From: Streptomyces caniferus
GTDB lineage: Bacteria; Actinomycetota; Actinomycetes; Streptomycetales; Streptomycetaceae
DNA length: 64,000 nt
Reading direction: 5' to 3'
NCBI RefSeq assembly: GCF_009811555.1
Contig: NZ_BLIN01000005.1
Span: 3,295,501 to 3,359,500, forward strand
The notes under the pieces were generated by a model. That model had not been told where the DNA came from and searched no databases. It was given only the letters and a program-made list of their open reading frames with translations. Of this stretch, positions 16,278-45,629 are shown piece by piece. How positions within the stretch are numbered: the first letter of the stretch is position 1; every line of letters starts with the position of its first letter. Position numbers and translations under genes: made by a program.

Positions 16278-17249
16278 TCAGGGCAGATGCCAGATCACGG
16301 TGGTCACGAGGTAGAAGACCGCGGCCCAGAACACCATCACGGCGGTGACGAGGCCGAGGCCCAGGAGGCGGGTCCTCGTCACCGGTGCGTCAGGGCGCGG
16401 CCGCAGCCACCGCTTGAGCAGCGGGTTCACATAGAAGGGCATCGTCACGAAGCTCATGATGAAGCTCGACAGCAGGTTGCCCACGAGCAGCCCGAGCCAG
16501 AGCGGCAGCTTCGCCGGTGACAGGGCGAGCGTCAGCAGCACCACGGTCGGGTAGAGGCCGACCCAGACCGCGACGGAGGTCTTGGTCTCCGAGGGCGGCG
16601 GCACTTCCCTGCCGTTCTCCTCGAAGGCGAACCAGCTGCCGAACGAGTTGTCGATCGTGCGCATGCGGAAGTCGTGGAACTTCTCGCCCTCGGCGAGGGC
16701 TTCCTTGCGCTCGGCCGAGGTCAGCCAGGCATCGAGGTGCTCGGCGCTGTCGAAGCGGTACAGCGTGGTCCATTCGTCCTGGAGCCCCTCGACCGGACGG
16801 AAGAGCTCGGTCCCGCGAAAGCCCTCGAAGGCGCTCTCCTTCTGGGTCATACGGCGCTGCCAGGCGAGGAAGGCGTCGACGTGGTCGGGGTGGACGCGGT
16901 GGGTGACCACGACGGTCACCAGCGGGTCCGGTGGCTGGGTGCCGCCGCTGACGACCTGCTGGGTCGCGGGGCCGTCGAGGTATCCGGCACCCCTGTCGAG
17001 AAAGCTCTGCCGGGTGGCGCTGTTGATCCACACCTGCAGATGCGCGATCGAGTCGAACCGGTAGACCACCACCCAGTCGGGCTGCACGGGCGTCGGCCGG
17101 GAGATCTCGGCGCCCAGGAATCCGGTGTAGCGGGCGGCCGCGGCGTTGACGTCCTCCTGCCATGCCTCGAACTCCCGCTCCAGGCCGGGCCGGACCTTCT
17201 GGCCGATGATGACCGTCGCCTCGGCGCCCGTCGGCCTTTCGGCGGTCAT
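16278..17249 (-). CDS. Tandem ABM-domain protein with C-terminal membrane spans
   Basis: 323 residues. Two antibiotic-biosynthesis-monooxygenase-type (dimeric alpha/beta barrel) domains lie in tandem, about residues 12-100 and 110-210; each has the VVYRFDS/TLYRFDS strand and W-helix. Three hydrophobic spans follow. The ATG overlaps the stop of the molybdenum-hydroxylase gene (ATGA), so it belongs to that operon. ABM folds act as small oxygenases or sensors; none of this tells the substrate. Unlike the genes before it, it is intact. Confidence 0.8.
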   Translation of the reverse strand: MTAERPTGAEATVIIGQKVRPGLEREFEAWQEDVNAAAARYTGFLGAEISRPTPVQPDWVVVYRFDSIAHLQVWINSATRQSFLDRGAGYLDGPATQQVVSGGTQPPDPLVTVVVTHRVHPDHVDAFLAWQRRMTQKESAFEGFRGTELFRPVEGLQDEWTTLYRFDSAEHLDAWLTSAERKEALAEGEKFHDFRMRTIDNSFGSWFAFEENGREVPPPSETKTSVAVWVGLYPTVVLLTLALSPAKLPLWLGLLVGNLLSSFIMSFVTMPFYVNPLLKRWLRPRPDAPVTRTRLLGLGLVTAVMVFWAAVFYLVTTVIWHLP

Positions 17250-19237
17250 GTGCGCGGGCCCGTCGTCATCGACGCGCTCTCGGCGAGCCGTCGGTAGATG
17301 CGTTCCGGTGTCAGGGGCAGCGCGCGGAAGCGGACGCCGGTGGCGTCGTGGAGCGCGTTCGCCAGCGCCGGGGCCACCGGGTTGATACAGGTCACCCAGG
17401 CCTCGGAGAGGTGCTCGGTCGGCGGCGCGGTCTCGTGCAGGGAGCTCGCGACACCGGACCCGACGAGCCACCCGGGGCCGGGCGGCGGCTCACCGGCGTC
17501 CCGGGCCATGGCCTCGGCCACCCGGTCGAGACACGTGCCGAGCCCGTCCTCGGTGAACACCACGTCGTCGGGGCCCTCGTCCAGGGAGAGCAGCGGATCG
17601 CCCGGCCGCACGATATTGCGCCGTCGCAGTTCGAGCGGATCCATGTGCAGGGCGACGGCGAGTTCGTCCATCGCCGATTCCACGGCGAACGCCGGCTGCG
17701 TCATTCCGTAACCGCGCAGGGCCCCGCTCGGCACGGTGTTGGTGTAGACGGAGAACGCGTCGTACTTCTTGTGGGGGCAGCGGTAGAGCATGACGGCGGC
17801 GCCCGCGTACAGCGTCTCGCCGGCGTGGTTGCCATAGGCGCCGGTGTTCGACACATTGCGGACCTGGAGCGCCGTGAGCGTGCCGTCGGCCTTCGCGCCG
17901 AGCTTGACCGTCAGCGTCATCGGATGCCGTGGCGAAGCGGTGGTGAACTCCTCTTCCCGGGTGCATTCGAAGGAGACCGGCCGCCCGGTGTCCAGGGCGG
18001 CGAGCGCCGCCAGGTCCTCCGAGATCACTTCCTGTTTGCCGCCGAAGCCGCCGCCCACACGCCTGCAGAACACCCGGAGCTCGTCCGGGCGCAGCGCGAA
18101 CAGATGGGCCAGTTTGACCTTCGCGATCGACGGCGCCTGCGAACTGGTGCGGACGCTCAGGCGGCCGTCCTCCCTCCAGGCGATCGAGCCGTGGGTTTCG
18201 AGATGCGCGTGCTGCACCCGCGGGGAGAAGTACGTGCCCTCGTGGATCACCTCGGCCTCGGCGAAGCCCGCGTCGATATCGCCGATCTGCGCATGGATCT
18301 CCACCAGGGTGTTGTGGACGGGGTCGAGGACGAAGGGATCCACCGCGCCGTGCAGCTGTGGCGCCCCCTCGGCCATGGCCTCCTCGGGGTCGAACACCGC
18401 CGGCAGCACCTCGTACTCCACGACGACCCGCCGGCAGCCCTCTTCGGCCGCCCCGACGGTGTCGGCCAGGACCGCGACGACGCGCTGGCCGACGAAGCGG
18501 ACGGTGTCGTCGAGGAGGCGGGTGTCGTCCGGATCCACGAGATGGTCGGTGTGGATCGCCGTGGTGAAGCGCCTGCGCGGTACGTCCTCCCAGGTGTAGA
18601 CCCGATGGACGCCGGGAACCGCGAGGGCGGCGGTCTTGTCGATCGAGACGATCCTGGCGTGCGCGTGCGGGGAGTGCAGGACCTTCAGGTGCAGCATGCC
18701 GTCGAGGTGGGTGTCCATCGTGAACTCGACGCGGCCGGTCACCACGTCCTCGGCCGCCGGCGCGGCTACGCTCGTCCCGACGGCCTTCCCCGGCGCCGCC
18801 TCCGCCACGCCGACGACGCCCTTCACGGCATCCTCGATCGCCCGGTAGCCGGTGCAGCGGCACAGGTTGCCCTTCAACGCCCGTGGCAGGTCCGCCTTCT
18901 GGGCCTCGGTGAACGTCGCCGACGTCATGATCATGCCTGCGGTGCAGAAACCGCACTGGAACCCCGGGGCGTCGCGGAACTGCCGCTGCACCGGATGCAG
19001 GTTCCCGGGCGCTCCGTTCCCCTCGATCGTCGTCACCTCATGGCCGTCGGCCCGGAAGGCGGGGGTGATGCAGCTGTGCACCGGAGCGCCGTCCAGCCAT
19101 ACCGTGCAGGCGCCGCAATCGCCCGCGTCGCAGCCCTTTTTGACGCCGAAGTGGCCGAGCGCGCGGAGGAAGGTGCGCAGGCACTGGCCGGGGGCGGGTT
19201 CTTCGTCGAAGCGCTTGCCGTACACGAGGTAGCTCAT
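17246..19237 (-). pseudogene. Fused [2Fe-2S]/molybdopterin dehydrogenase subunit, internally deleted
   Basis: 663 residues where about 900-950 are expected. The N-terminal [2Fe-2S] domains are complete (GCDAGDCGACTV; QCGFCTAGM; GNLCRCTGYRAIEDAV). The first molybdopterin domain is good (RRVGGGFGGKQE, SGALRGYGMTQPA). At about 17389 the reading jumps from SEAWVT straight to CINPVAPALANAL, the last 50 residues of the family, so the GQG motif and the GEP catalytic Glu are missing. The frame is open, so a truncated protein could be made, but it should be inactive. It follows the damaged FAD subunit by an ATGA overlap. Confidence 0.8.
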
Positions 19238-20059
19238 TCCGCGCCCCCGGCCAGGAGTTCGCGGCGGATCTCCTCCGCGAAGTGCTGTGTCAGATGGCGG
19301 CGGTGGCCGGGGGTCCCGTTGGGATCGTCGAACCAGATGCCGGCGGGAAGGGCGTCGATGCTCTCCCGCAGCGTCCGGGCATCGGGCATGGCGTCGAAGG
19401 CGAGGCGCACCGGCCGGGTGGTGCCCGCGGTGACGGTGAGCAGCAGATCGCCGGTGCCCGGCGTGTGCGTACCGATCAGGAAGACCGTCGAACGGCCGAG
19501 GCGGGTCAGCGAGAAACGGCGATGCGCGGTGCGTTTCCGCAGGGCGTGCACCGGAATGTCGATGCGCCGCAGAATTTCCCCGGGGGCCGGAATGTTCCGG
19601 TGGTCGCCGGTCACGAAGTCGAGGGCATCGACGGTGCGTGTGGACCCGTCGGGAGCCCACAATTCGTACCGCGCCTCCAGTGCGACCGTCAGCGTGATTG
19701 GGCCCGGCCGGCAAGGACATACAGATGTTTCCGCCGACGGTCGCCGAGCTCCAGACCTTGAACGAGGACAGGAACGCCTCACAGCTTTTCGCGAAAAGGC
19801 CGCCCGCGCTCCACTCCTTCGGCGGCGCATACGCATACAGGTCGCGGATGGTGCACGTGGCGCCGATTCCCAGGCCCGTCCAGCTCGGTACGAGGGGCTC
19901 CCAGCGCAACGCCGTCAGGTCGATCAGGCGGCGCAGGTCCGGCTGCTCCACGGAGAACAGCCAGGTTCCGCCGGCGAGCCAGGCATCGCCGGACCGCCAG
20001 TCCGCGTCCGGCCGGCCGGACGGCCGCCGGACGACTTCGGTGATGGTGTTGAGGTCCAG
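19234..20059 (-). pseudogene. FAD-binding subunit of molybdenum hydroxylase, frameshifted
   Basis: CoxM/XdhB-type FAD subunit. Residues LDLNTITEVVRRP...AGGTW...GATCTIRDL...ATVGGNICMSLPAGP are read in one frame, then from ITLTVALEARYELWAPDG to the stop in another; the switch is at about 19700, where a two-base loss (or one-base gain) breaks the gene. The codon in the start position, after GGGAGG, is CTG (20059) with an in-frame stop upstream, which looks like a mutated ATG. Sequencing error could explain the indel but not all lesions in this operon. Confidence 0.8.
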
Positions 20060-35293: not shown

Positions 35294-36823
35294 TCACCGG
35301 CCGGTGTGCAGCGCGGCCACGAAGCGGTAGGTGTCGTCGGCCTCGCCCTTGTCCGTCGGGCGGCGCAGTTCCACCAGTGCCAGGGGGCGGTCCACCGGCT
35401 CGCCCGTGTCCGGGTCGAAGGCTATGTAGCCGCTGATGCCACGGACCCGGGATCTGCCGTTGGTCTGCTCCAGCATGGCCAGCACCATCCGGGCGGTGAC
35501 CTGGCGGGTGCCGTAGACGCCGACGGCGTTCCGGGCGGCCTTGCCGATGGTGTAGGTGGCGTCATGGCCGAGCATCGCCTGGCCGCTGGCGAGGGCGGAG
35601 GGCGGGCCGCCGACCTCGTCGCGGTAGGCACGCGCGAAGTCCGCGAACGGGCCGTTCCTGGCGGCGCCGTAGACCTCCTCGGATATCCGGGGATGGGTGA
35701 AGGCGGTGTAGTAGACCGTCAGGCGGCTGTACTTCCAGCGTTCGGCGAGGGTGGAGAGCTCGGTGCGGTGCCGGTCGCCGCCGGTGTCGAAGTAGACGCC
35801 CAGCGCACTGGAGCCGGAGAGCACCGTCGTGGGGCAGTGCCGGCCTCCCTCACCGGCCGCCTCGATGAACCGGCGCAGCTCCCGCCCCCGGCCGGCGAAA
35901 TACACCACGTCCGGTGGCTTCGGGTCACCGCAGACCTTGTCGGCGACCAGGGACAGCGCATTGCCCGCCGTCTCCTCCTCGCCCTCCCCGGAGCGGAACG
36001 GGATGACCTCGTCGTCCACCTTCAGGCCCGCACGCCGGGCCGCCGCGGAGAAGTCCTCGTAGAGGGAGGTGTTGTAGTCGTCCTTCTCGTTGCCGTCACG
36101 GATCACCTGGACGCGGTAGCCGGGGTGCTTTTGCTGCTGCTCCTTGAGGTAACCGGCGGCGGCCGCGGTCTGGTCGCGGTTGGGGAAGGAGACCCGGTAG
36201 AACCCGGCCGTACGGGAACTCAGCCCGTCGGCGGCCACGGTCGCGCCGACCATCGGCAGCCCGGCGGCCCGCAGCCGCTTCACGGCGCTCATCGTGCGGT
36301 CGTTGCTCTGTCCGAAGCCCGCCACGGCGACGAGGTGTTCCTTGTCCTTCATCGCGACGAGCTGGTCGACGACCCGTTTCCAATGCCGGTCGCCGCTGCC
36401 GGTGTTGGCGAGCAGCAGCCGGATCTTGGGCAGTGTCGCGCGCTCGGCGTTCAGCGCGCGCTGGGCGAGGTAGGCGCCGCTGACGGCCTGCCGGGTGGCC
36501 TCCGGCCCACGGTCGGCGGAGCCGCCCGACATGGCCTCGATATAGGCGACGGCGACCGACCGCTGCCCGGACTTGGCGACCTTCTCGTTCTCGTCGCGGA
36601 TCTTGGCGCTCAGCCGCTGCATGTTCCCGAAGGCGTAGGCACCGTCCGTGACGCCCACGCACTCACCGCCGGCCATCTGGCGGACGCCGTCGCCGCAGCG
36701 GCCGGCCCGGTCGACGATCTGCAGTGCGGCGGCGACCGCGACCGCCGCCACCACCAGCGCCGAGGCGATCCACAGCCCCCAGCGCCGCGGGGGTCGGGGC
36801 GGTTCGAAGATACGGGTGCTCAC
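35294..36823 (-). CDS. Membrane-anchored ligand-binding (receptor family) protein
   Basis: 509 residues. An N-terminal TM (about 15-35) anchors a periplasmic-binding-protein type I fold like branched-chain amino acid receptors: IRLLLANTGSGD, LVAVAGFGQSND, GLPMVGATVAADGLSS, YRVSFPNRDQ, then YFAGRGRELRRFIE. No transporter permease is adjacent. GTG 36823 overlaps the stop of the NTPase gene (GTGA), so the two are made together. Inference: an extracellular sensor partner of the NTPase. Confidence 0.78.
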   Translation of the reverse strand: MSTRIFEPPRPPRRWGLWIASALVVAAVAVAAALQIVDRAGRCGDGVRQMAGGECVGVTDGAYAFGNMQRLSAKIRDENEKVAKSGQRSVAVAYIEAMSGGSADRGPEATRQAVSGAYLAQRALNAERATLPKIRLLLANTGSGDRHWKRVVDQLVAMKDKEHLVAVAGFGQSNDRTMSAVKRLRAAGLPMVGATVAADGLSSRTAGFYRVSFPNRDQTAAAAGYLKEQQQKHPGYRVQVIRDGNEKDDYNTSLYEDFSAAARRAGLKVDDEVIPFRSGEGEEETAGNALSLVADKVCGDPKPPDVVYFAGRGRELRRFIEAAGEGGRHCPTTVLSGSSALGVYFDTGGDRHRTELSTLAERWKYSRLTVYYTAFTHPRISEEVYGAARNGPFADFARAYRDEVGGPPSALASGQAMLGHDATYTIGKAARNAVGVYGTRQVTARMVLAMLEQTNGRSRVRGISGYIAFDPDTGEPVDRPLALVELRRPTDKGEADDTYRFVAALHTGR

Positions 36824-38904
36824 AGCCACGGCTCCTTTCCGTACTGCTTCGCCTTCCGCAGCAGCGCCGAGGTCCAGGGCACGCTGTCGGCGTGCACCGC
36901 GAGGGTGTGGAAGCGGGCCTGGATCTCGCCGTACAGCTCGGCTGCGGGATCGCCGAGCGGATCGCGGTACGGGTCGCCTATCCGGTCCGTACGGGGGTCG
37001 TCCGGCGGCTCGGGGCCGATCCACACCGCCGCGAGCAGCCGGGTGATGGTCCGCAGCCGCTGCTCCACCGCACCGTCGCCGAGGTGGTCGACCAGCCGTT
37101 CGTAGCGTTCCCACAGCGGCCGGTCGAGGGCGCCGCCGGCCGGGGGGAGCGGGGCGCGCCGCAGTCGGCACAGCTCCGCGCACCAGTCCTCCGGGGCGAG
37201 ACGGTCGAAAGCCTCGTCCAGATAGGCCGCCGCCGCGGCGAGATCACCGCTCGCCAGCGCGTGATACGCCGCGGTGGCCTGCTCCCCCGAGGCGGCCGCC
37301 CGCTCCCGCAGGGCGGCATGCACGGCACGCCACCCGCGCATGCCGGATGCCCCGTCGGTGGTTCCGCCGTCCCCTCCCGTCCCCACATCGGGCTCCGGGA
37401 CCGCGGCGAGCCGGCACAGCAGCAGAAGGCGCAGCAGCGGATGGGGAGTTTCCGAAGGGCCGTCAAAACCCTCGTCGCCGCTGTCGAGGTGCATGGTGCG
37501 CAGCACGTCCGTGCAGAAGTCGGCGAACTCCTCCTGGACGCGGGCGCTCGACTCGTCCCACAGCACCCGGCCCGCCTGTGTCTGGGCCAGATCGACGGCA
37601 GCCGCGGCACGGGCCAGTGCCTGCGCCAGCTCACCGCTCGCCTCGATCGGCAACAGCCGCTCCAGCAGGGCGTCGACGAGGCCCGAGGAGGGCTGCAGGA
37701 CCTGCCGCAGCCGGGCCTCCCAAGCGGCCTCCCCCGGGCATTCGAGCAGGGCTTCCAGCAGCTGCGCGGTGCCCGCCGGATGACCGCGGGTGAGTTCATG
37801 CACCACCCAGCCCAGCCATTGCACACCGTTGTCGGCAGCCGGCACCGGCACCCGGCGTCCTGCCGACCGCAGCACCTCCTTCGCCTGCTGCTCGACCTCG
37901 TGCCGCGCCAGATCGCGCAGCCGGCCCACCACCAGCCCCGTGACGATCGGTTCCGGAACGAACTTCTCCTCCTGCGCGGGCCACCGGCCGGGCAGCGCAC
38001 CGGTCCGCCGCGGCCCGCCGAACGCGAAGCCCTCCAGCGCCGCCGGATAGCTGCCCGCGGTGGCCAGCACCAGCAGCGGGTCGGGCGCCCCCGCCTTGCG
38101 CCGGGCGTCCAACAGCGCTTTCAGGAAGTCGTTGCCCAGGGGACTGTCGACGTTGTCCAGCAGCACCAGGCACTGCGTCGTACGCCGCTTGTCGCCGCCG
38201 CGCGAGCCGTACGACCGGCGCAGATCGTCCAGGAAGGCGTCGAAGAGCACCGCCTCGGCCCGCTGCCGCTCGGCCTCCTCGCGGTCGCCGTAGCGCTGAT
38301 TGAGGTCGATCAGAAAGCCGTCCACGGAGCCGGCGCCCCGGCTGCGACGACGGATGCGCGCCAGTTGCCAGCGCACCCGCAGGCGCGCCCAGTGACGCCG
38401 CCACTCCGGCAGCAGCGGCAGCGCGGCGGTCACCGCCGTCGGGGCGCCGAGGACCGTTGCGGCATAGGTGGCGAGCTGGTTGATCACGTCCGAGCGACTG
38501 CTCGGCGGCCCGACCAGCGCCGCCTCCATCTGCCGTACGGCGGCGTCCCGGTCAGCCGCCTCCATCTGTGCCGCGACGGCGATGGTCAGCAGCCCGAACG
38601 CCGGAAACCGCAGCCGGGTGAAGTCCTTCTTCTTCTCGTTGAGCTGGAAGACCAACGCGGCCAGCACATCGAGCGGCTTGCGGCCCTCCTGCCCCAGCGC
38701 CGCCAGATCGAGACGGGCCACCGGCGCCCGCCGGGCCCAGTCCGCCAGATGCCGCAACACGGTCGTCTTGCCACTGCCGCGCGGCCCCAGCAGCAGCGTG
38801 GCAGGCAGCTCGGGCCGGCTGCCCGGCCTGCGCACCAACAGCTCCTGGACGTACCGTTCCACAGCCCGGTCCCGCCCGGACTCCCCCGCCCACTCCTGTG
38901 GCAT
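36820..38904 (-). CDS. Large P-loop NTPase (STAND/AAA-like)
   Basis: 694 residues. Walker A GPRGSGKTT at about 40-48 and Walker B CLVLLDNVD at about 245-253. The C-terminal 400 residues are helical and repeat-like, as in signal-transducing STAND ATPases. A hydrophobic stretch (about 101-112) and another near 145-165 may touch the membrane. It is coupled to a ligand-binding protein gene. GGGGAG precedes ATG 38904. No precise family named. Confidence 0.72.
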   Translation of the reverse strand: MPQEWAGESGRDRAVERYVQELLVRRPGSRPELPATLLLGPRGSGKTTVLRHLADWARRAPVARLDLAALGQEGRKPLDVLAALVFQLNEKKKDFTRLRFPAFGLLTIAVAAQMEAADRDAAVRQMEAALVGPPSSRSDVINQLATYAATVLGAPTAVTAALPLLPEWRRHWARLRVRWQLARIRRRSRGAGSVDGFLIDLNQRYGDREEAERQRAEAVLFDAFLDDLRRSYGSRGGDKRRTTQCLVLLDNVDSPLGNDFLKALLDARRKAGAPDPLLVLATAGSYPAALEGFAFGGPRRTGALPGRWPAQEEKFVPEPIVTGLVVGRLRDLARHEVEQQAKEVLRSAGRRVPVPAADNGVQWLGWVVHELTRGHPAGTAQLLEALLECPGEAAWEARLRQVLQPSSGLVDALLERLLPIEASGELAQALARAAAAVDLAQTQAGRVLWDESSARVQEEFADFCTDVLRTMHLDSGDEGFDGPSETPHPLLRLLLLCRLAAVPEPDVGTGGDGGTTDGASGMRGWRAVHAALRERAAASGEQATAAYHALASGDLAAAAAYLDEAFDRLAPEDWCAELCRLRRAPLPPAGGALDRPLWERYERLVDHLGDGAVEQRLRTITRLLAAVWIGPEPPDDPRTDRIGDPYRDPLGDPAAELYGEIQARFHTLAVHADSVPWTSALLRKAKQYGKEPWL

Positions 38905-39822: not shown

Positions 39823-42153
39823 CTACTGCTGCACCACCTGTGCCACCGCCGCCTGCGGGCGGATCGGGAGGCGGCCGATGGGGCGGCCGGTGGCGGCGCG
39901 GACCGCGGAGGCCACGGCGGCCGGTGAGGTGACGACCGGGACGGCGCTGGCGGGCTTGGCGCCGAAGGGGGCGATCACGTCCCGCTCCTCGACGAGCTTG
40001 ACGATGCGGATGTCCGGGGCGTCCAGGGCGGTCGGCAGCGCATAGCCGGTCAGATCGGGGTGGCGGACCTGACCGCGGGTGGTGCGCAGGTTCTCCATCA
40101 GGGCGGCCCCCAGGCCCTGGGTGACACCGGCCTCGATACGGGCCCGCAGCTGGCGGGGGTTGAGCACCCGGCCCACGTCCTGGGCGACGGTCATCTCCAC
40201 GACGCGGATGGTGCCGAGCTCGATGTCGACGTCCGCGACGCAGCGGATCGCGCAGAACGCGAGGCCGACGAACGCGTCGCCCTGGCCGCTCTCGTCCAGC
40301 GGCTCCGTCGGATGCGGCCGGCACTGGGCGGTGGCCCACAGTTCCTTGCCGTCCAGCGCCTCGGCGACGGTGGTGCTGAGCACCCCGTCGTAGGAGGTGA
40401 TCTTGCCGTCGTTGATCTGCAGCAGCTCGGTGGACATCCCGAACTTGTGGGCCAGCGGCTGCAGCAGTTGCGTACGGACCATCTTGGCGGCGCGCTCGAC
40501 GGCGCCGCCGGAGACCCAGGTGTGCCGCCCGTGGCAGGCCGCGCCGGCCGGCGGCTGGTCGGTGTCGACGCCCGCGATGTGCACCTCGTCGACGCCGAGC
40601 GTCTCCTGCACGATCTGCCGCGCCAGGGTGGAGAACCCCGACCCGGTCTCGACGGCGGCGCAGATGACCGTGGCCACCGAGCCGCTGACCTTGACGGTGG
40701 CGGTGGAGACCTCGTCGGTGCCCTCCGCTCCGAGCATGTGCACCATGCCCAGCGCGTAGCCGACGCCCCGGCGCACCGCACCCGGTTCGCCCGCCCCCTC
40801 GGGGCCGCCCGGCAGCAGCCACTCCGCTTCGGGCGCGTCCTTGGGCAGCTCGGGAAGCGGCGCTTCCTTGACGGCGTCCAGGAGTTCGGCCACCGGGGCG
40901 GGGCAGGTCACCGTCTGCCCCGTGGGCAGCAGATCGCCGGTGGCCATGACGTTGCGCAGCCGGATCTCGTCGGGCTCCAGGCCCAGCCGGGCGGCCAGCT
41001 TGTCCATCTGGCCCTCGTAGGCGGCACAGACCTGCAACGCGCCCTCGCCGCGCACATGGCCGGACGGCGGGTTGTTGGTGCGCACCGCCCACCCGTCGAC
41101 GACGGCATGCGGGACGACGTACGGGCCGCAGGAGAAGGAGACCGCGGCGGCCAGCGCGTCGGCGGAGGTGTCCGCGTAGGCGCCGGCGTCCATCAGGATC
41201 TGGGCCTCCACCTTGACCAGCTTGCCCTCGGCGTCCGCATGGTGGCGGTAGCGCAGCAGCGTGGGGTGGCGGTGGGCGTGCGCGAGGAAGGACTCCTCGC
41301 GGGTCGCCGCGAGCTTGACCGGGCAGCCCGTACGCAGGGCCAGCAGGCCGAGCGGCAGTTGGATGCCGGGGTCCTCGCGGTCGGCGGTGGCGCCGGGCAC
41401 GCCGGTCACCACGACCTTGACCTGGTCCGGTTCAAGGCCGAAGGAGGCGGCGGCCAGATCACGGTCGGTGTGCGGGTCCGTGGAGGCGGTGTAGATCTCC
41501 ACGCCGCCATCGGGGCGCGGCACCGCGAGCCCGGCCTCGGCCCCGATGGGCGCCGGGTCCTGGCGGCCGATCCGGTAGAGCCCCTCGACCATCACCTCGC
41601 CCACGACATCCGGGTCGCCGAAGCGGAGCGGGATGTGCCGGATGAGGTTGCCGTCCGGGTGCAACGGCTCCGCTTCGAAGGCCAGTTGGGGGTCGGTGAC
41701 CGCTTCCTGGATCTCGTACTCGACGTCGATGGCGGCGGCGGCCAGCCGTGCCGTGTCGGGGTGGTCGGCGGCCACCGCGGCGATCGGCTCGCCGTGGTGG
41801 CGGACCTCGTCCTTGGCGAAGACCGGGCGGTCGGCGGTGCCCCGGCCGTGGCCCGCGTCACCGGGGACGTCCTCGTGCGTGACGACGACGCGCACGCCCG
41901 GCATCTCCACGGCGTGCTTGGTGTCGATCGACAGGATCCGCGCCCGCGGGTGCGGTGAGCGCAGCACCGCGGCCCACAACAGCCCCTCGGCCCACAGGTC
42001 GGCGGCGTACGGGAAGGTGCCCTCCGCCTTGGCCGGTGCGTCGGCGGACGGCAGGGACACGCCCAGGCCGTGCGCCGGCTCCTCGACGGGGATCGGAGTG
42101 CCCGCCGCCGGGGTCGCGGTGACGGCACCTGCGCCGTCGGACGTGCCACTCAT
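39823..42153 (-). CDS. Xanthine-dehydrogenase-like large subunit lacking active-site residues
   Basis: 776 residues, full length, with recognisable aldehyde oxidase/xanthine dehydrogenase hammerhead and two molybdopterin-type domains (TNNPPSGHVRGEG at 360-370; AQDVGRVLNPRQL; GVTQGLGAALMENL). Key motifs are changed: GGGFGGK is GVPGATADRED (251-261), the GQG motif is TGSG (503-506), and the catalytic Glu of GAKGxGEP is Ala (GAKPASAVP, about 731-739). It follows the micro-ORF by ATGA overlap. Either a pseudo-enzyme or a divergent cofactor-binding branch. Confidence 0.85.
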   Translation of the reverse strand: MSGTSDGAGAVTATPAAGTPIPVEEPAHGLGVSLPSADAPAKAEGTFPYAADLWAEGLLWAAVLRSPHPRARILSIDTKHAVEMPGVRVVVTHEDVPGDAGHGRGTADRPVFAKDEVRHHGEPIAAVAADHPDTARLAAAAIDVEYEIQEAVTDPQLAFEAEPLHPDGNLIRHIPLRFGDPDVVGEVMVEGLYRIGRQDPAPIGAEAGLAVPRPDGGVEIYTASTDPHTDRDLAAASFGLEPDQVKVVVTGVPGATADREDPGIQLPLGLLALRTGCPVKLAATREESFLAHAHRHPTLLRYRHHADAEGKLVKVEAQILMDAGAYADTSADALAAAVSFSCGPYVVPHAVVDGWAVRTNNPPSGHVRGEGALQVCAAYEGQMDKLAARLGLEPDEIRLRNVMATGDLLPTGQTVTCPAPVAELLDAVKEAPLPELPKDAPEAEWLLPGGPEGAGEPGAVRRGVGYALGMVHMLGAEGTDEVSTATVKVSGSVATVICAAVETGSGFSTLARQIVQETLGVDEVHIAGVDTDQPPAGAACHGRHTWVSGGAVERAAKMVRTQLLQPLAHKFGMSTELLQINDGKITSYDGVLSTTVAEALDGKELWATAQCRPHPTEPLDESGQGDAFVGLAFCAIRCVADVDIELGTIRVVEMTVAQDVGRVLNPRQLRARIEAGVTQGLGAALMENLRTTRGQVRHPDLTGYALPTALDAPDIRIVKLVEERDVIAPFGAKPASAVPVVTSPAAVASAVRAATGRPIGRLPIRPQAAVAQVVQQ

Positions 42154-42257
42154 GCCGAAACCTCGCTTCGCCCGGCCTCGCATTCGCTCGGCGCGCGCCT
42201 CGCTGTGATGCTTCCCCGGTGTCCGGCCGGGGGGACCCCCATGCTGCGCTCGCTCAT
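42150..42257 (-). CDS. Bridging micro-ORF (MSERS...), 35 codons
   Basis: Its ATG overlaps the TGA of the [2Fe-2S] gene (ATGA), and its own TGA overlaps the ATG of the large-subunit gene (ATGA). It begins MSERSMGVPP and ends GRSEVSA. The last bases carry GCGAAGCGAGG about seven bases before the next ATG, a workable ribosome-binding site. It contains TGGGGGTCCCCCC, also present in the repeat at 13030. Probably a translational relay made of repeat DNA rather than a functional peptide. Confidence 0.55.
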   Translation of the reverse strand: MSERSMGVPPAGHRGSITARRAPSECEAGRSEVSA

Positions 42258-44659
42258 GCGGAGCCTCCCGTGTGCGGATCCTGGTCGTGCGGGGCGTGGC
42301 CCGTGGGGTCGGCGGGGCCCGCCTGGTGCGGGATACGGGCGGTGTCCGTCGGCGCCGGCCTGTCGGTCTCGTCCGTGTCGTCGGCCGGGCCGTAGGCGGC
42401 CTCAGCGGCCTCCGCACGGCCCTTGACGACCTCGTCGACGGCGTCCAGCACGCCCCGGTAGCCGGAACAGCGGCAGAGGTTGCCGCACAGCGCCTTACGG
42501 GTCTCCAGCTCGCTGGGGGCGTGGTTGCCCTCCAGGAGGTCGTGGACGGTCATCGCCATCCCCGGTACGCAGAAGCCGCACTGCACCGCACCGGACGCGG
42601 TGAGCGCGCGCTGCACGTCGGAGGGCACACCGTTCTCCGCGAGCCCCTCGACCGTGCGGACCTCGCTGCCCGCCGTGGTGGCCGCGGGCACCAGGCAGGA
42701 CGCCACCAGCCGCCCGTCCACCTGGACGGAGCAGGCCCCGCACTCGCCCTGCGAGCAGCCGTCCTTGGCGCCGGCCAGTCCGAGCCGCTCGCGCAGCACG
42801 TAGAGCAGCGACTCGCCGATCCAGGCGTCGGTGACCGGCCGGTCGATGCCGTTCACCCGCAGGACGTAGGACGCGGCGGGGTGTTCGTCGAAGTCATCGG
42901 CGCCGGGTTCGCCCGCGGCGCCGAGGCCGTCCCCGGCGTCGGGGCCGTCTTCGTGGCCGGTGGCGGGAGCGGGCGGGGAGGCCATGGACGTGGCGTCGGA
43001 CTCGGACTCCGTGGGGGCCCCGGTGCCGACGGCGTGATCGGTGCCGACGGCGCCCGAGGGATCGCCGGAGTCCTCGGTGTCGCCGAGCGGAGCCCCGGTA
43101 CCGGTGGACTCGGCGCCGCCAACGGACCGCGGGCCGCCGGGAGTGCCGGCACCGCCGGTGCCGTCCTCGTCGCCGCTCTCGCCCGTCCCCGTGCCCTCAC
43201 CGGCGTGCCCGGAACCCCTCGGGTCCGCGAGGCCGTCGAGGTTCGTGAGGCCGCCGAGCTCCGTGAGGCCGTGGTGCTCGCCGTGCTCCGGCGGGGCGTC
43301 CGCACCGTCGTCGGGACCCGACACGGCGGACGTCACGGGCCCGGCCGCGTCGGTGACCGCGAACTCGCCGGAATCCTCCTGCCGTTCGCCTTCGGCACCC
43401 GGGACCGCCCAGCCGTCCGTCCCCGGGGCGTCCGCCGCCCCGTCGGGCCGGTCCGCCGCCTCGTGCTGATGCGGCGCTTCGTGCTGATGCGGCGCCTCGT
43501 CGTGCGGCGGCTGCGCCGTCTCCGCGGCGGGCGGCCACTGGGCCAGCGCGTCGGCCGGCAACGACCAGTGCCCGGTCGCCGCACCGGCCGCGCCGTTCCC
43601 GGCACCCGCGCCCGCACCGTACGGGTCGCCGCCCGACGGGCCGCCGTCGCCGCGCTGTTCGGCGTCCGGCCCGGCGCCATGGGCCGGGAGGCCGCGCTCG
43701 TGCGCATACGGGTCGTCCGCGGCGCCGCCGAAGTGCTCGTGCGCCGCCCCGCCGTGCGCGGTGTCCTGCGGCGCGGCAGGGGCTGCCTCCGCCCCGCTGG
43801 TGGCGGTCAGCCCGGTGGTGAAGTTCCAGTGCCCGGTAGCAGTGGCCTCGCCGGTGTCCGTCGCGTGCCCGGCGCCGTCGTACGCACCCGCGCCCGGGTA
43901 CCCGCCGCCCTGGTAACCGTCGGCACCATTGGACCCCGCGAGGCCGGGATGCCCGGGATGGCCCGAATGGCCATGGTGATCCGAATGACCATGGTGATCC
44001 GAATGACCGGGGTGGCCCGATTGACCGTGGTGGCCCGAGTGGTCGTGGTGATCCTGATGGCCCTGATGGCCCTGATGACCACCCGTGAGTGGCGAATACC
44101 CCGTCAGTCCGTCGTCGCCGACCAGGTATTCGCCGGATTCCTCCAGACCGTCGTCGGCCGCCGCGGGAACCGACCAGGTTCCGGCGCCGCCCGCCTCCGG
44201 GCTGCCCGCGACGGGCCAGTCCACCGGGTCGGCGTGCCACGGCCGGGCCGCCTCGGGGGCGTCGCCGTGGTAGCCGTCGGCGGCGCCGTGGTGGGCCGCG
44301 TACTCCGCCTGGGCCGGGTATCCGGCGGACGGGTCGGCGTACCCGGCCGAGGGGTCCGCGAACGGCATCGTCCACTGGCCGGTGGCCGCCGGGTCGGTGC
44401 CGGCGCCCGCGACCGGCGGCGCGGGGTCGTGCGGGGTGAAGGAGGACGGCGGGGTGTAGCCGTGACCGGGTGCGGCGAGCGGCTCCGCGCCCGGGGTGCC
44501 GTACCGGGGCGATCCGCCTCCGTACACCCCGGTGGTGAAGCCCTCCGGGAGCTGCACGAAGGCCGTCGCCTCCGACTCGTACTCGCCGCCCTGCGGCAGC
44601 GGCTGCCAGCCCTGCTCGGGGTGCGGCTGGTACGGATGGCGGTTGTCTGCGTCGCTCAT
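42254..44659 (-). CDS. [2Fe-2S] subunit with about 595-residue disordered N-terminus
   Basis: 801 residues. The C-terminal 205 are a normal molybdenum-hydroxylase small subunit: Cys635, 640, 643, 655 for the plant-type cluster and Cys694, 697, 729, 731 for the second cluster. The N-terminal part is low-complexity Gly/Pro/Ala/His. It holds a His-rich block (about 194-238, GHSDHHGHS repeats), five spaced Trp motifs (TGQWTMP, GTWSVP, TGHWNF, TGHWSLP, DGWAVP; Trp96, 162, 279, 365, 417), and two SGE[YF]xV motifs. ATG 44659 is fixed by the overlap with the upstream micro-ORF. Confidence 0.85.
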   Translation of the reverse strand: MSDADNRHPYQPHPEQGWQPLPQGGEYESEATAFVQLPEGFTTGVYGGGSPRYGTPGAEPLAAPGHGYTPPSSFTPHDPAPPVAGAGTDPAATGQWTMPFADPSAGYADPSAGYPAQAEYAAHHGAADGYHGDAPEAARPWHADPVDWPVAGSPEAGGAGTWSVPAAADDGLEESGEYLVGDDGLTGYSPLTGGHQGHQGHQDHHDHSGHHGQSGHPGHSDHHGHSDHHGHSGHPGHPGLAGSNGADGYQGGGYPGAGAYDGAGHATDTGEATATGHWNFTTGLTATSGAEAAPAAPQDTAHGGAAHEHFGGAADDPYAHERGLPAHGAGPDAEQRGDGGPSGGDPYGAGAGAGNGAAGAATGHWSLPADALAQWPPAAETAQPPHDEAPHQHEAPHQHEAADRPDGAADAPGTDGWAVPGAEGERQEDSGEFAVTDAAGPVTSAVSGPDDGADAPPEHGEHHGLTELGGLTNLDGLADPRGSGHAGEGTGTGESGDEDGTGGAGTPGGPRSVGGAESTGTGAPLGDTEDSGDPSGAVGTDHAVGTGAPTESESDATSMASPPAPATGHEDGPDAGDGLGAAGEPGADDFDEHPAASYVLRVNGIDRPVTDAWIGESLLYVLRERLGLAGAKDGCSQGECGACSVQVDGRLVASCLVPAATTAGSEVRTVEGLAENGVPSDVQRALTASGAVQCGFCVPGMAMTVHDLLEGNHAPSELETRKALCGNLCRCSGYRGVLDAVDEVVKGRAEAAEAAYGPADDTDETDRPAPTDTARIPHQAGPADPTGHAPHDQDPHTGGSA

Positions 44660-44736
44660 GCCGAGCCCTCGCTTCGCTCGGCCTCGCCTGCGCGAGGCGC
44701 GCACCTCCTGATGGTCTGCTCACTGCGCTCGCTCAT
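44656..44736 (-). CDS. Bridging micro-ORF (MSERS...), 26 codons
   Basis: Its ATG overlaps the TGA of the FAD-subunit gene, and its TGA overlaps the ATG of the [2Fe-2S] gene. The peptide begins MSERSEQTIRR and ends ERSEGSA, like the other bridging ORF. GCGAAGCGAGG lies seven bases before the next ATG. AGGAGG occurs inside. Same interpretation as the 42150 ORF. Confidence 0.55.
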   Translation of the reverse strand: MSERSEQTIRRCAPRAGEAERSEGSA

Positions 44737-45629
44737 GAGAGCGCCCTCCCCAGTGCGCGGCGGGCCAAGGCTGCCACCGTACGGCGCAGGTGGAGTGCGG
44801 CGGGCGGCAGGGCGGCCGGTTCCGAACCGTCCTCGGGCGGCGCCGGGTCCGGGATGCAGGCGGCGGCGACATAGTCGCCGAAGGCCGTCAGCGCCTCGGG
44901 AACCAGGCCGCGTTCGCCGTCCCAGTCGATCAGGGAGGCCACCCACTGCTCGGCCTCCAGCGGGCGCAGCGGCATGGCGGCGACCGCGCCCACCGCGCAG
45001 CGCACGCCGCGCCTGGCCGGGTCCAGGACGAGCGAGACGGAGGCGGTGGCCCGGCCGGGGCCGGTGCGGCCGGTGGCCTTGAGGAAGGTCTGCGGGGCGT
45101 GCAGCAGCGGCACCCGTACGAAGCCGACGAGTTCGCCGGGGCTCAGCATCTCCCGGCCGGCCAGGAGGTGGCTGACCGGGATCTCGCGACGGGCGCCCCC
45201 GGGGCCGGCGATGATCACCGTGGCTTCGAGGGCGGCGAGCACCGGGAGGGTGTCGCCCGTGGGCGCGGAGGTCACGATGTTGCCGCCGAGGGTGCCGGCG
45301 TTGCGGACCTGCGGCGGGCCGGCCGCGCGGGCGGCGGCGGCGAGACCCGGGATCAGGGCGGCGAAGTCGGGGCGCCCCATACGGGCGAGGGTGAGGCCGG
45401 CGCCGAGCAGCGCATGGCCGTCCAGGTACTGCCAGCCGCGGATCTCGCTGATCCGGCCGAGGCCCACCAGGGCTGCGGGTCTGAGGAGTCCGGCGTTGAC
45501 CGCCGCCATGAGATCGGTGCCGCCCGCGACGGGCACGGCGGCGGGCATGGCGGTGAGCGCCGCCACCGCCTCGTCGAGCGAGGCCGGCAACGTCACCGTG
45601 TGCGACGCGTGCGGTGCGTGCGTGGTCAA
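44733..45629 (-). CDS. FAD-binding subunit of molybdenum-hydroxylase-like complex
   Basis: 298 residues, CoxM/XdhB type. FAD motifs VPVAGGTDLMAAVNAG and AGTLGGNIVTSAPTGD are intact, and a C-terminal CO-dehydrogenase flavoprotein domain follows. The start is TTG 45629, with GGAAGGGG eight bases upstream; longer readings add unrelated sequence. It is first in the operon FAD - micro-ORF - FeS - micro-ORF - large subunit. Confidence 0.85.
   Translation of the reverse strand: MTTHAPHASHTVTLPASLDEAVAALTAMPAAVPVAGGTDLMAAVNAGLLRPAALVGLGRISEIRGWQYLDGHALLGAGLTLARMGRPDFAALIPGLAAAARAAGPPQVRNAGTLGGNIVTSAPTGDTLPVLAALEATVIIAGPGGARREIPVSHLLAGREMLSPGELVGFVRVPLLHAPQTFLKATGRTGPGRATASVSLVLDPARRGVRCAVGAVAAMPLRPLEAEQWVASLIDWDGERGLVPEALTAFGDYVAAACIPDPAPPEDGSEPAALPPAALHLRRTVAALARRALGRALS

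Follow-up and report, generated by a model that had tools for sequence, protein, structure and literature searches.

Xanthine dehydrogenases of the PucCDE/XdhABC type are assembled from an FAD subunit, a subunit carrying two [2Fe-2S] clusters, and a large subunit with the molybdenum-binding fold. As separate chains in the PDB, small iron-sulfur (FeS) subunits of this kind measure 158 to 229 amino acids, and those of 4-hydroxybenzoyl-CoA reductase (1rm6) and nicotinate dehydrogenase (3hrd), both of which are active enzymes, have 161 and 160 residues, respectively. XdhC is the chaperone that inserts the molybdenum cofactor (Moco) into the xanthine dehydrogenase of R. capsulatus, and its gene does not lie beside every operon of the family (PMC2997495). 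Enzymes with disordered N-termini are known among the cargos of family-2 encapsulins, such as cysteine desulfurase and 2-MIB synthase, and some of these N-termini carry short conserved motifs (PMC8346489). Here we describe an operon of Streptomyces caniferus, contained in a 64,000-nucleotide stretch of DNA (the window), that encodes three subunits of the PucCDE/XdhABC kind, with pucD as the best match of the large one, and shares with the xanthine oxidase family the eight cluster cysteines, the FAD motifs, and the domains of the molybdenum subunit. Unlike those enzymes, it has lost the catalytic base glutamate and the GGxFGG Moco loop, has no adjacent XdhC gene, and encodes an FeS subunit of 801 amino acids.

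The operon lies on the minus strand and consists of three genes, encoding an FAD-binding medium subunit of 288 amino acids (44733..45599; PF00941, AGGTD and TLGGN motifs retained), the [2Fe-2S] subunit, which is a single reading frame by open reading frame (ORF) analysis and Pfam and NCBIfam matches (42254..44659), and a molybdenum-hydroxylase-like large subunit of 776 amino acids with a degenerate active site (39823..42153; Pfam and NCBIfam matches plus alignments). We take it to correspond to SCO2940-2942. SCO2940 is listed as "putative oxidoreductase / xanthine dehydrogenase" in one table (PMC3770449); our literature search found SCO2940 named once, in a table, and SCO2941 unmentioned, and listed no description of this protein. 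A search on pseudoenzymes in connection with both xanthine dehydrogenase and the molybdenum cofactor listed only a paper on vitamin B6 in maize.

In all 17 relatives examined, the stop codon of the FAD gene overlaps the start codon of the FeS gene in the ATGA or GTGA manner, which fixes the FeS start codon and means that the arm described below is translated within the FeS subunit. Short minus-strand ORFs of 26 and 35 amino acids occupy the FAD-FeS junction (44656-44736) and the FeS-Mo junction (42150-42257), respectively; both begin with MSERS, end with SA, and are coupled to their neighbors by ATGA overlaps. The 14-mer at their start, ATGAGCGAGCGCAG, occurs just twice in 859.5 kb. The FAD-FeS junction ORF was seen in 0 of 17 relatives, and a short ORF of different sequence occupies the FeS-Mo junction in 4 of 17.

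The distribution of the operon was followed in 121 genomes of the family, from which 40 loci were picked to span genera rather than at random. The FAD, FeS, and Mo genes are adjacent at 40 of 40 loci, and GH20 and/or DUF3039 genes lie upstream of them at 39; within the fetched stretches, GH20 was found at 32 loci, DUF3039 at 31, and yqgE at 29, with GH20 absent from the fetched loci of groups g63, g66, and g71 and of genome G108. An orthologue of the large subunit at least 64% identical is present in 113 of the 121 genomes by hand count, and a 114th (G111) has a same-locus orthologue, 65.5% identical over the 409 amino acids of a partial stretch. The seven genomes of g63 and g66 encode a Mo subunit that is ~50% identical, and the five that were fetched all have it at the same locus. 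A genome search found no XdhC gene on the operon's contig; the two XdhC loci are on contigs 7 and 3, both near other Mo-hydroxylase genes, one of them ~1.8 kb past the canonical xanthine dehydrogenase. Elsewhere in the window, genes for an AAA-type NTPase (36820-38904, minus strand) and a periplasmic-binding-type protein (35294-36754, minus strand) lie downstream of the operon, and neither had a match at the 40 relative loci, where the stretches end a few kilobases past the Mo gene. A second molybdenum-hydroxylase-like ORF (17246-19951, minus strand) has Fer2, Fer2_2, Ald_Xan_dh_C, and MoCoBD_1 matches and a GGGFGGKQE sequence; MoCoBD_2 was not matched, so it looks truncated or broken.

The domains of the Mo subunit (PF02738, PF20256, and PF01315) all score above the Pfam cut-off, and the closest solved structures are 1rm6 (E = 1.6e-63) and 3hrd (E = 1.3e-60). 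Its best NCBIfam model, pucD, gives 626.9 bits against a cut-off of 783.65. We dropped this shortfall as a sign of difference, since two controls, the trimmed canonical xanthine dehydrogenase of the same genome (759) and the protein from another family discussed below (G213; 777.4), fall short too.

Ala737 (codon 39943..39945, minus strand) aligns with Glu869 of the D. gigas aldehyde oxidoreductase (1sij), which we take to be the catalytic base of the family, and GVPGATADRED (residues 251 to 261; 41371..41403, minus strand) stands in place of GVGGAFGGRED, whose GGAFGG loop presumably contacts Moco. Glutamate is retained at the catalytic position in 0 of 45 orthologues from Streptomycetaceae genomes (at least 62% identical, S. 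caniferus itself included), 44 having Ala and 1 Ser, and likewise in none of the best 120 of 2,979 database matches, which are close Streptomyces relatives (118 Ala, 2 Ser). Gly253 of the Moco loop has become Pro in all 45 orthologues, each of which reads GVPG[AS]; the same pattern holds in 110 of the best 120 of the 2,979 database homologues, with 10 unmatched by it. At position 370, presumably the substrate-stacking Phe of active enzymes, all 45 have Glu, a count that rests on the 45 genomes because the pattern for this site failed on the 120 database homologues. The site of Gln198, which we assume to be the Mo-contacting Gln, has changed to Ala in 3 of the 45. Among the canonical xanthine dehydrogenases compared, the second one encoded by the S. 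caniferus genome included, Glu, Gly, Phe, and Gln are retained in 15 of 15.

The equivalent glutamate mutation in mouse AOX1, E1265Q, gives an inactive enzyme that retains 60% Moco compared with 70% for the wild type (PMC2671166), so that loss of the glutamate alone need not abolish Moco binding. The substrate-side Arg295 is retained in 45 of 45 Streptomycetaceae orthologues and Glu260 in 43 (Asp in the other 2), and some ligand binding may therefore remain. From this pattern of substitutions, we infer that molybdenum hydroxylation has been lost in the complex, so that the sequence-only description of a redox subunit with an unusual tail, which took no account of the Mo subunit, falls short.

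Selection continues to act on the whole complex. In three comparisons, the dN/dS of the Mo subunit was 0.10, 0.22, and 0.18, indicating purifying selection, and that of the neighboring GH20 gene was 0.19, 0.29, and 0.37; judged from these ratios, the Mo-subunit gene is not a decaying pseudogene. Values for the FAD subunit (0.07 to 0.17) and the FeS core (0.11 to 0.15) are likewise low, and the FAD motifs TLGGN and AGGTD are found at 40 and, by a strict pattern, 37 of the 40 loci, respectively.

The clusters of the FeS subunit are confined to its C-terminal part. The two-[2Fe-2S] domain spans residues 599 to 745 (42425..42865, minus strand) on Pfam, NCBIfam, and PDB matches, with Fer2/Fer2_2 at residues 614 to 741 and the NCBIfam models of xanthine dehydrogenase small subunits at 598 to 746. 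Its eight cysteines (C635, C640, C643, C655, C694, C697, C729, and C731) are invariant in 28 chosen sequences, and a core with at least eight Cys is present at all 40 loci. A C-terminal tail of ~50 amino acids follows, with a conserved RIPHQ (residues 775 to 779; 42323..42337, minus strand); [IVL]PHQ occurs 116 times in the C-tails of 119 homologues compared with 0.17 expected.

Everything upstream of the core, residues 1 to 592 (42884..44659, minus strand), appears to be a disordered extension. The first Pfam match starts only at residue 614, and residues 1 to 598 have no PDB match (E ≤ 1) and no PHROG match (E ≤ 0.1). An AlphaFold model built with 28 sequences shows neither helix nor strand upstream of residue 598; it is a poor model (mean pLDDT, 44, compared with 42 for the Mo subunit) and was used only for the missing secondary structure in the arm. 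When the 197-amino-acid arm of a relative was searched against the S. caniferus genome (E ≤ 1), the matches were to this gene only, and so the arm was not found as a module of other proteins. The sequence-only reading had described a long disordered tail with repeated Trp motifs on a redox subunit; the region is real, at ~590 residues, but it sits at the other end of the protein, as an N-terminal extension.

The arm contains a series of short blocks that keep the same order across the 28 chosen homologues: GWQPLPQGGEYDxEATAFVQLP, PLAAPGxGYVPP, and DPAATGQWTMP, followed by TGxW with SGE[YF], then TG[QH]WNF, and finally RIPHQ close to the C-terminal end of the protein. In S. caniferus, where all coordinates refer to the minus strand, the first two correspond to GWQPLPQGGEYESEATAFVQLPEG (residues 17 to 40; 44540..44611), in which P20, T32, V35, L37, and P38 are invariant in the 28, and PLAAPGHGYTPP (residues 60 to 71; 44447..44482), with P60, L61, A63, G65, Y68, P70, and P71 invariant. 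The third includes TGQWTMP (residues 93 to 99; 44363..44383), with G94 and W96 invariant. Further along come TGHWNF (residues 275 to 280; 43820..43837), whose W278 is found in at least 90% of the 28, and TDGWAVP (residues 414 to 420; 43400..43420), with W417 in at least 90% and P420 invariant. A motif scan added AGTWSVP (residues 159 to 165; 44165..44185), SGEYLV (175 to 180; 44120..44137), TGHWSLP (362 to 368; 43556..43576), and SGEFAV (430 to 435; 43355..43372). The two SGE[YF] motifs noted in the sequence-only reading are at residues 175 and 430, and the five Trp motifs are all present as GxW, with one of them, TGHWNF at residue 275, lacking the proline ascribed to the set.

These motifs exceed chance. 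In 2,000 shuffles of residues 1 to 590, [ST]Gx[WYF] was expected 0.82 times and observed 6 times, TGxW was expected 0.11 times and observed 3 times, and [ST]GE[FY] was expected 0.04 times and observed twice. Among 557 ORFs in 859.5 kb of the same genome, this is the only one with more than one TGxW or with any SGE[YF]; it also has the highest count of [ST]Gx[WYF] (6) and ranks second by enrichment, behind an ORF of 381 amino acids (4 compared with 0.28 expected).

They also extend across Streptomyces and far beyond this strain. The FeS homologue set comprised the best 120 of 510 matches at 0.55 to 1.75 times the query length, of which 119 remained after exclusion of one (P0070) without a core match. 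Their arms contain [ST]Gx[WYF] 595 times compared with 50 expected from shuffles, TGxW 341 times compared with 9.6, and [ST]GE[FY] 142 times compared with 2.4, figures that overstate independence because the homologues are related. Since the length filter hides short orthologues, we used the 40 genome loci to assess the presence of the arm. An arm of about 150 amino acids or more, at either end of the protein, was found at 37 of them, with lengths, approximated from gene-to-gene gaps, that range from none to ~1,600 amino acids; the three armless loci belong to one genus (g66). [ST]Gx[WYF] occurs 106 times at the 40 loci compared with 12.6 expected, with at least two copies at 28 loci, one at 6, and none at 6. 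At ten loci from four genera (g64, g65, g72, and g75), little sequence precedes the FeS core and the arm instead follows it at the C-terminus; these arms have 27 copies compared with 2.4 expected, none of them with Trp and unevenly spread, from none (L063) to seven (L065). The arm of G108 has ten copies, mostly SGQWQVP alternating with SGEY, which represents a local amplification of this motif pair.

Relative to the nearest genome relative (L074), dN/dS was 0.10 in the motif segments and 0.73 in the remaining arm, a contrast that is partly circular because an alignment of relatives served to choose the segments. For two pairs that are less closely related, in which the arm is poorly alignable, the contrast was weak (0.55 versus 0.84 and 0.64 versus 0.71). 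Comparison among species, as the earlier reading had proposed, therefore bears out the arm and its repeated motifs at most loci and is consistent with the multivalent binding that it had suggested, with the exception of the three armless loci.

The His-rich block (residues 188 to 237; 43949..44098, minus strand) behaves differently. It has 18 His in 50 amino acids, whereas the best 50-amino-acid windows of the 119 homologues have a median of 6 and a maximum of 15, and it sits in an 18-bp/54-bp tandem repeat of the DNA. We rejected it as a conserved metal site, a role that had been raised for it, and regard it as a lineage-specific repeat expansion.

An orthologous operon from another family of the same order (G213), with DUF3039 and yqgE genes adjacent, gives an indication of the order of events. 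Its large subunit is 55% identical and retains GVGGAFG, QDQAFLGPE, and GAGE, departing from the canonical site in having RGD for RED and RGHG for RGFG. Its FeS subunit has a disordered arm of ~490 amino acids, with one [ST]Gx[WYF] and a start codon that is not fixed, compared with a total of 158 amino acids in the FeS subunit of a canonical xanthine dehydrogenase of the order (L138). Since G213 keeps both the Glu and the Moco loop alongside a long arm, this one genome suggests that the arm arose first and that loss of the Mo site followed in the lineage leading to Streptomycetaceae. In the two deeper genera g63 and g66, Asp replaces Glu at the four readable of five loci (the site in L054 was unreadable), Gly253 is retained, and Phe is lost, so that, from their residues, these proteins look like an intermediate state of active-site loss. 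The g66 loci are armless yet have an altered site, and the arm and the lost site are thus not strictly coupled.

Taken together, these results suggest that the complex probably serves a purpose different from the annotated chemistry. Retention of the FAD/[2Fe-2S] pair, the scaffold, and, mostly, the motif-bearing arm after loss of the hydroxylase residues points to a redox hub. The reading that we prefer, and to which we give about an even chance, is that of a pseudo-xanthine-dehydrogenase in which flavin/[2Fe-2S] redox activity and multivalent binding through the arm are what survives of its function; as in pseudoenzymes in general, fold and selection are retained and catalytic residues are lost. 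Hydroxylase chemistry would be gone, selection would now maintain the flavin/[2Fe-2S] complex as a redox-active hub, and the arms, of which a complex dimerizing like its relatives would have two, would bind a partner multivalently through their aromatic motifs. Candidate partners would be either another protein or, within the complex, the funnel left vacant at the active site of the large subunit; our analysis found no partner for the arm, and the operon contains no partner gene. More tentatively, we consider it possible that the hub is redox responsive, the flavin and two [2Fe-2S] clusters sensing or passing electrons, the funnel or a dedicated partner binding the [ST]Gx(W/Y/F) stickers, and the whole organizing other proteins, possibly as a condensate.

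The complex might instead be an NAD(P)H or electron-carrier oxidoreductase running from FAD to [2Fe-2S], with the large subunit a mere scaffold and the arm tethering a redox partner. Intact FAD and cluster motifs, the constraint on the FeS core, and a vanished Mo site would all fit, but the operon supplies no gene for such a partner, and we find this doubtful. That the arm is functionless drift, of the low-complexity kind common in actinobacterial genomes of high GC content, is unlikely: its variable length, the high dN/dS outside the motifs, the weak contrast in the distant pairs, the expansion of the His block, and the 12 of 40 loci with one motif or none are what drift would give, but drift would not account for ordered invariant positions in 28 homologues, for the motif excess in the 119 related arms, for the low motif dN/dS in the close pair, or for the uniqueness of SGE[YF] and repeated TGxW among the 557 ORFs. 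It is very unlikely that the annotation is right and the protein is active as a xanthine or aldehyde dehydrogenase, the arm being unusual but incidental, since the base Glu, the Moco-loop Gly, and the stacking Phe are gone from 45 of 45 orthologues, and the Glu from the best 120 homologues as well, whereas the separate canonical enzyme of the same genome (L053) has these residues intact; the match to pucD (627 bits), the database name "xanthine dehydrogenase family protein," and the retained Arg295 and, mostly, Glu260 speak for activity. Finally, the likeness to disordered cargo N-termini, the four SrpI-like shell genes in this genome, and the presence of at least one in 59 of 61 family genomes notwithstanding, it is very unlikely that the arm loads the enzyme into a family-2 encapsulin shell, and we rejected this as a general mechanism because no shell gene is linked to the operon within the 64-kb window and because two genomes without a shell gene, G106 (a draft genome, 93% complete) and G108 (a single contig; ten motifs), have the operon with an arm of ~600 amino acids. 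The four SrpI-like genes of S. caniferus, two of them adjacent, are on contig 3 (1132559-1134867 and 211379) and contig 5 (806641), and no Linocin-type shell was found in this genome.

The "xanthine dehydrogenase" proteins of these antibiotic producers are probably incapable of that reaction, which bears on models of their purine metabolism. The orthologue in a sister family that still has the base Glu (G213) offers a before-and-after comparison. A pseudo-molybdoenzyme that is conserved, has intact motifs for electron transfer, and bears stickers on a disordered arm would represent a testable example of a complex kept for a role other than its chemistry.
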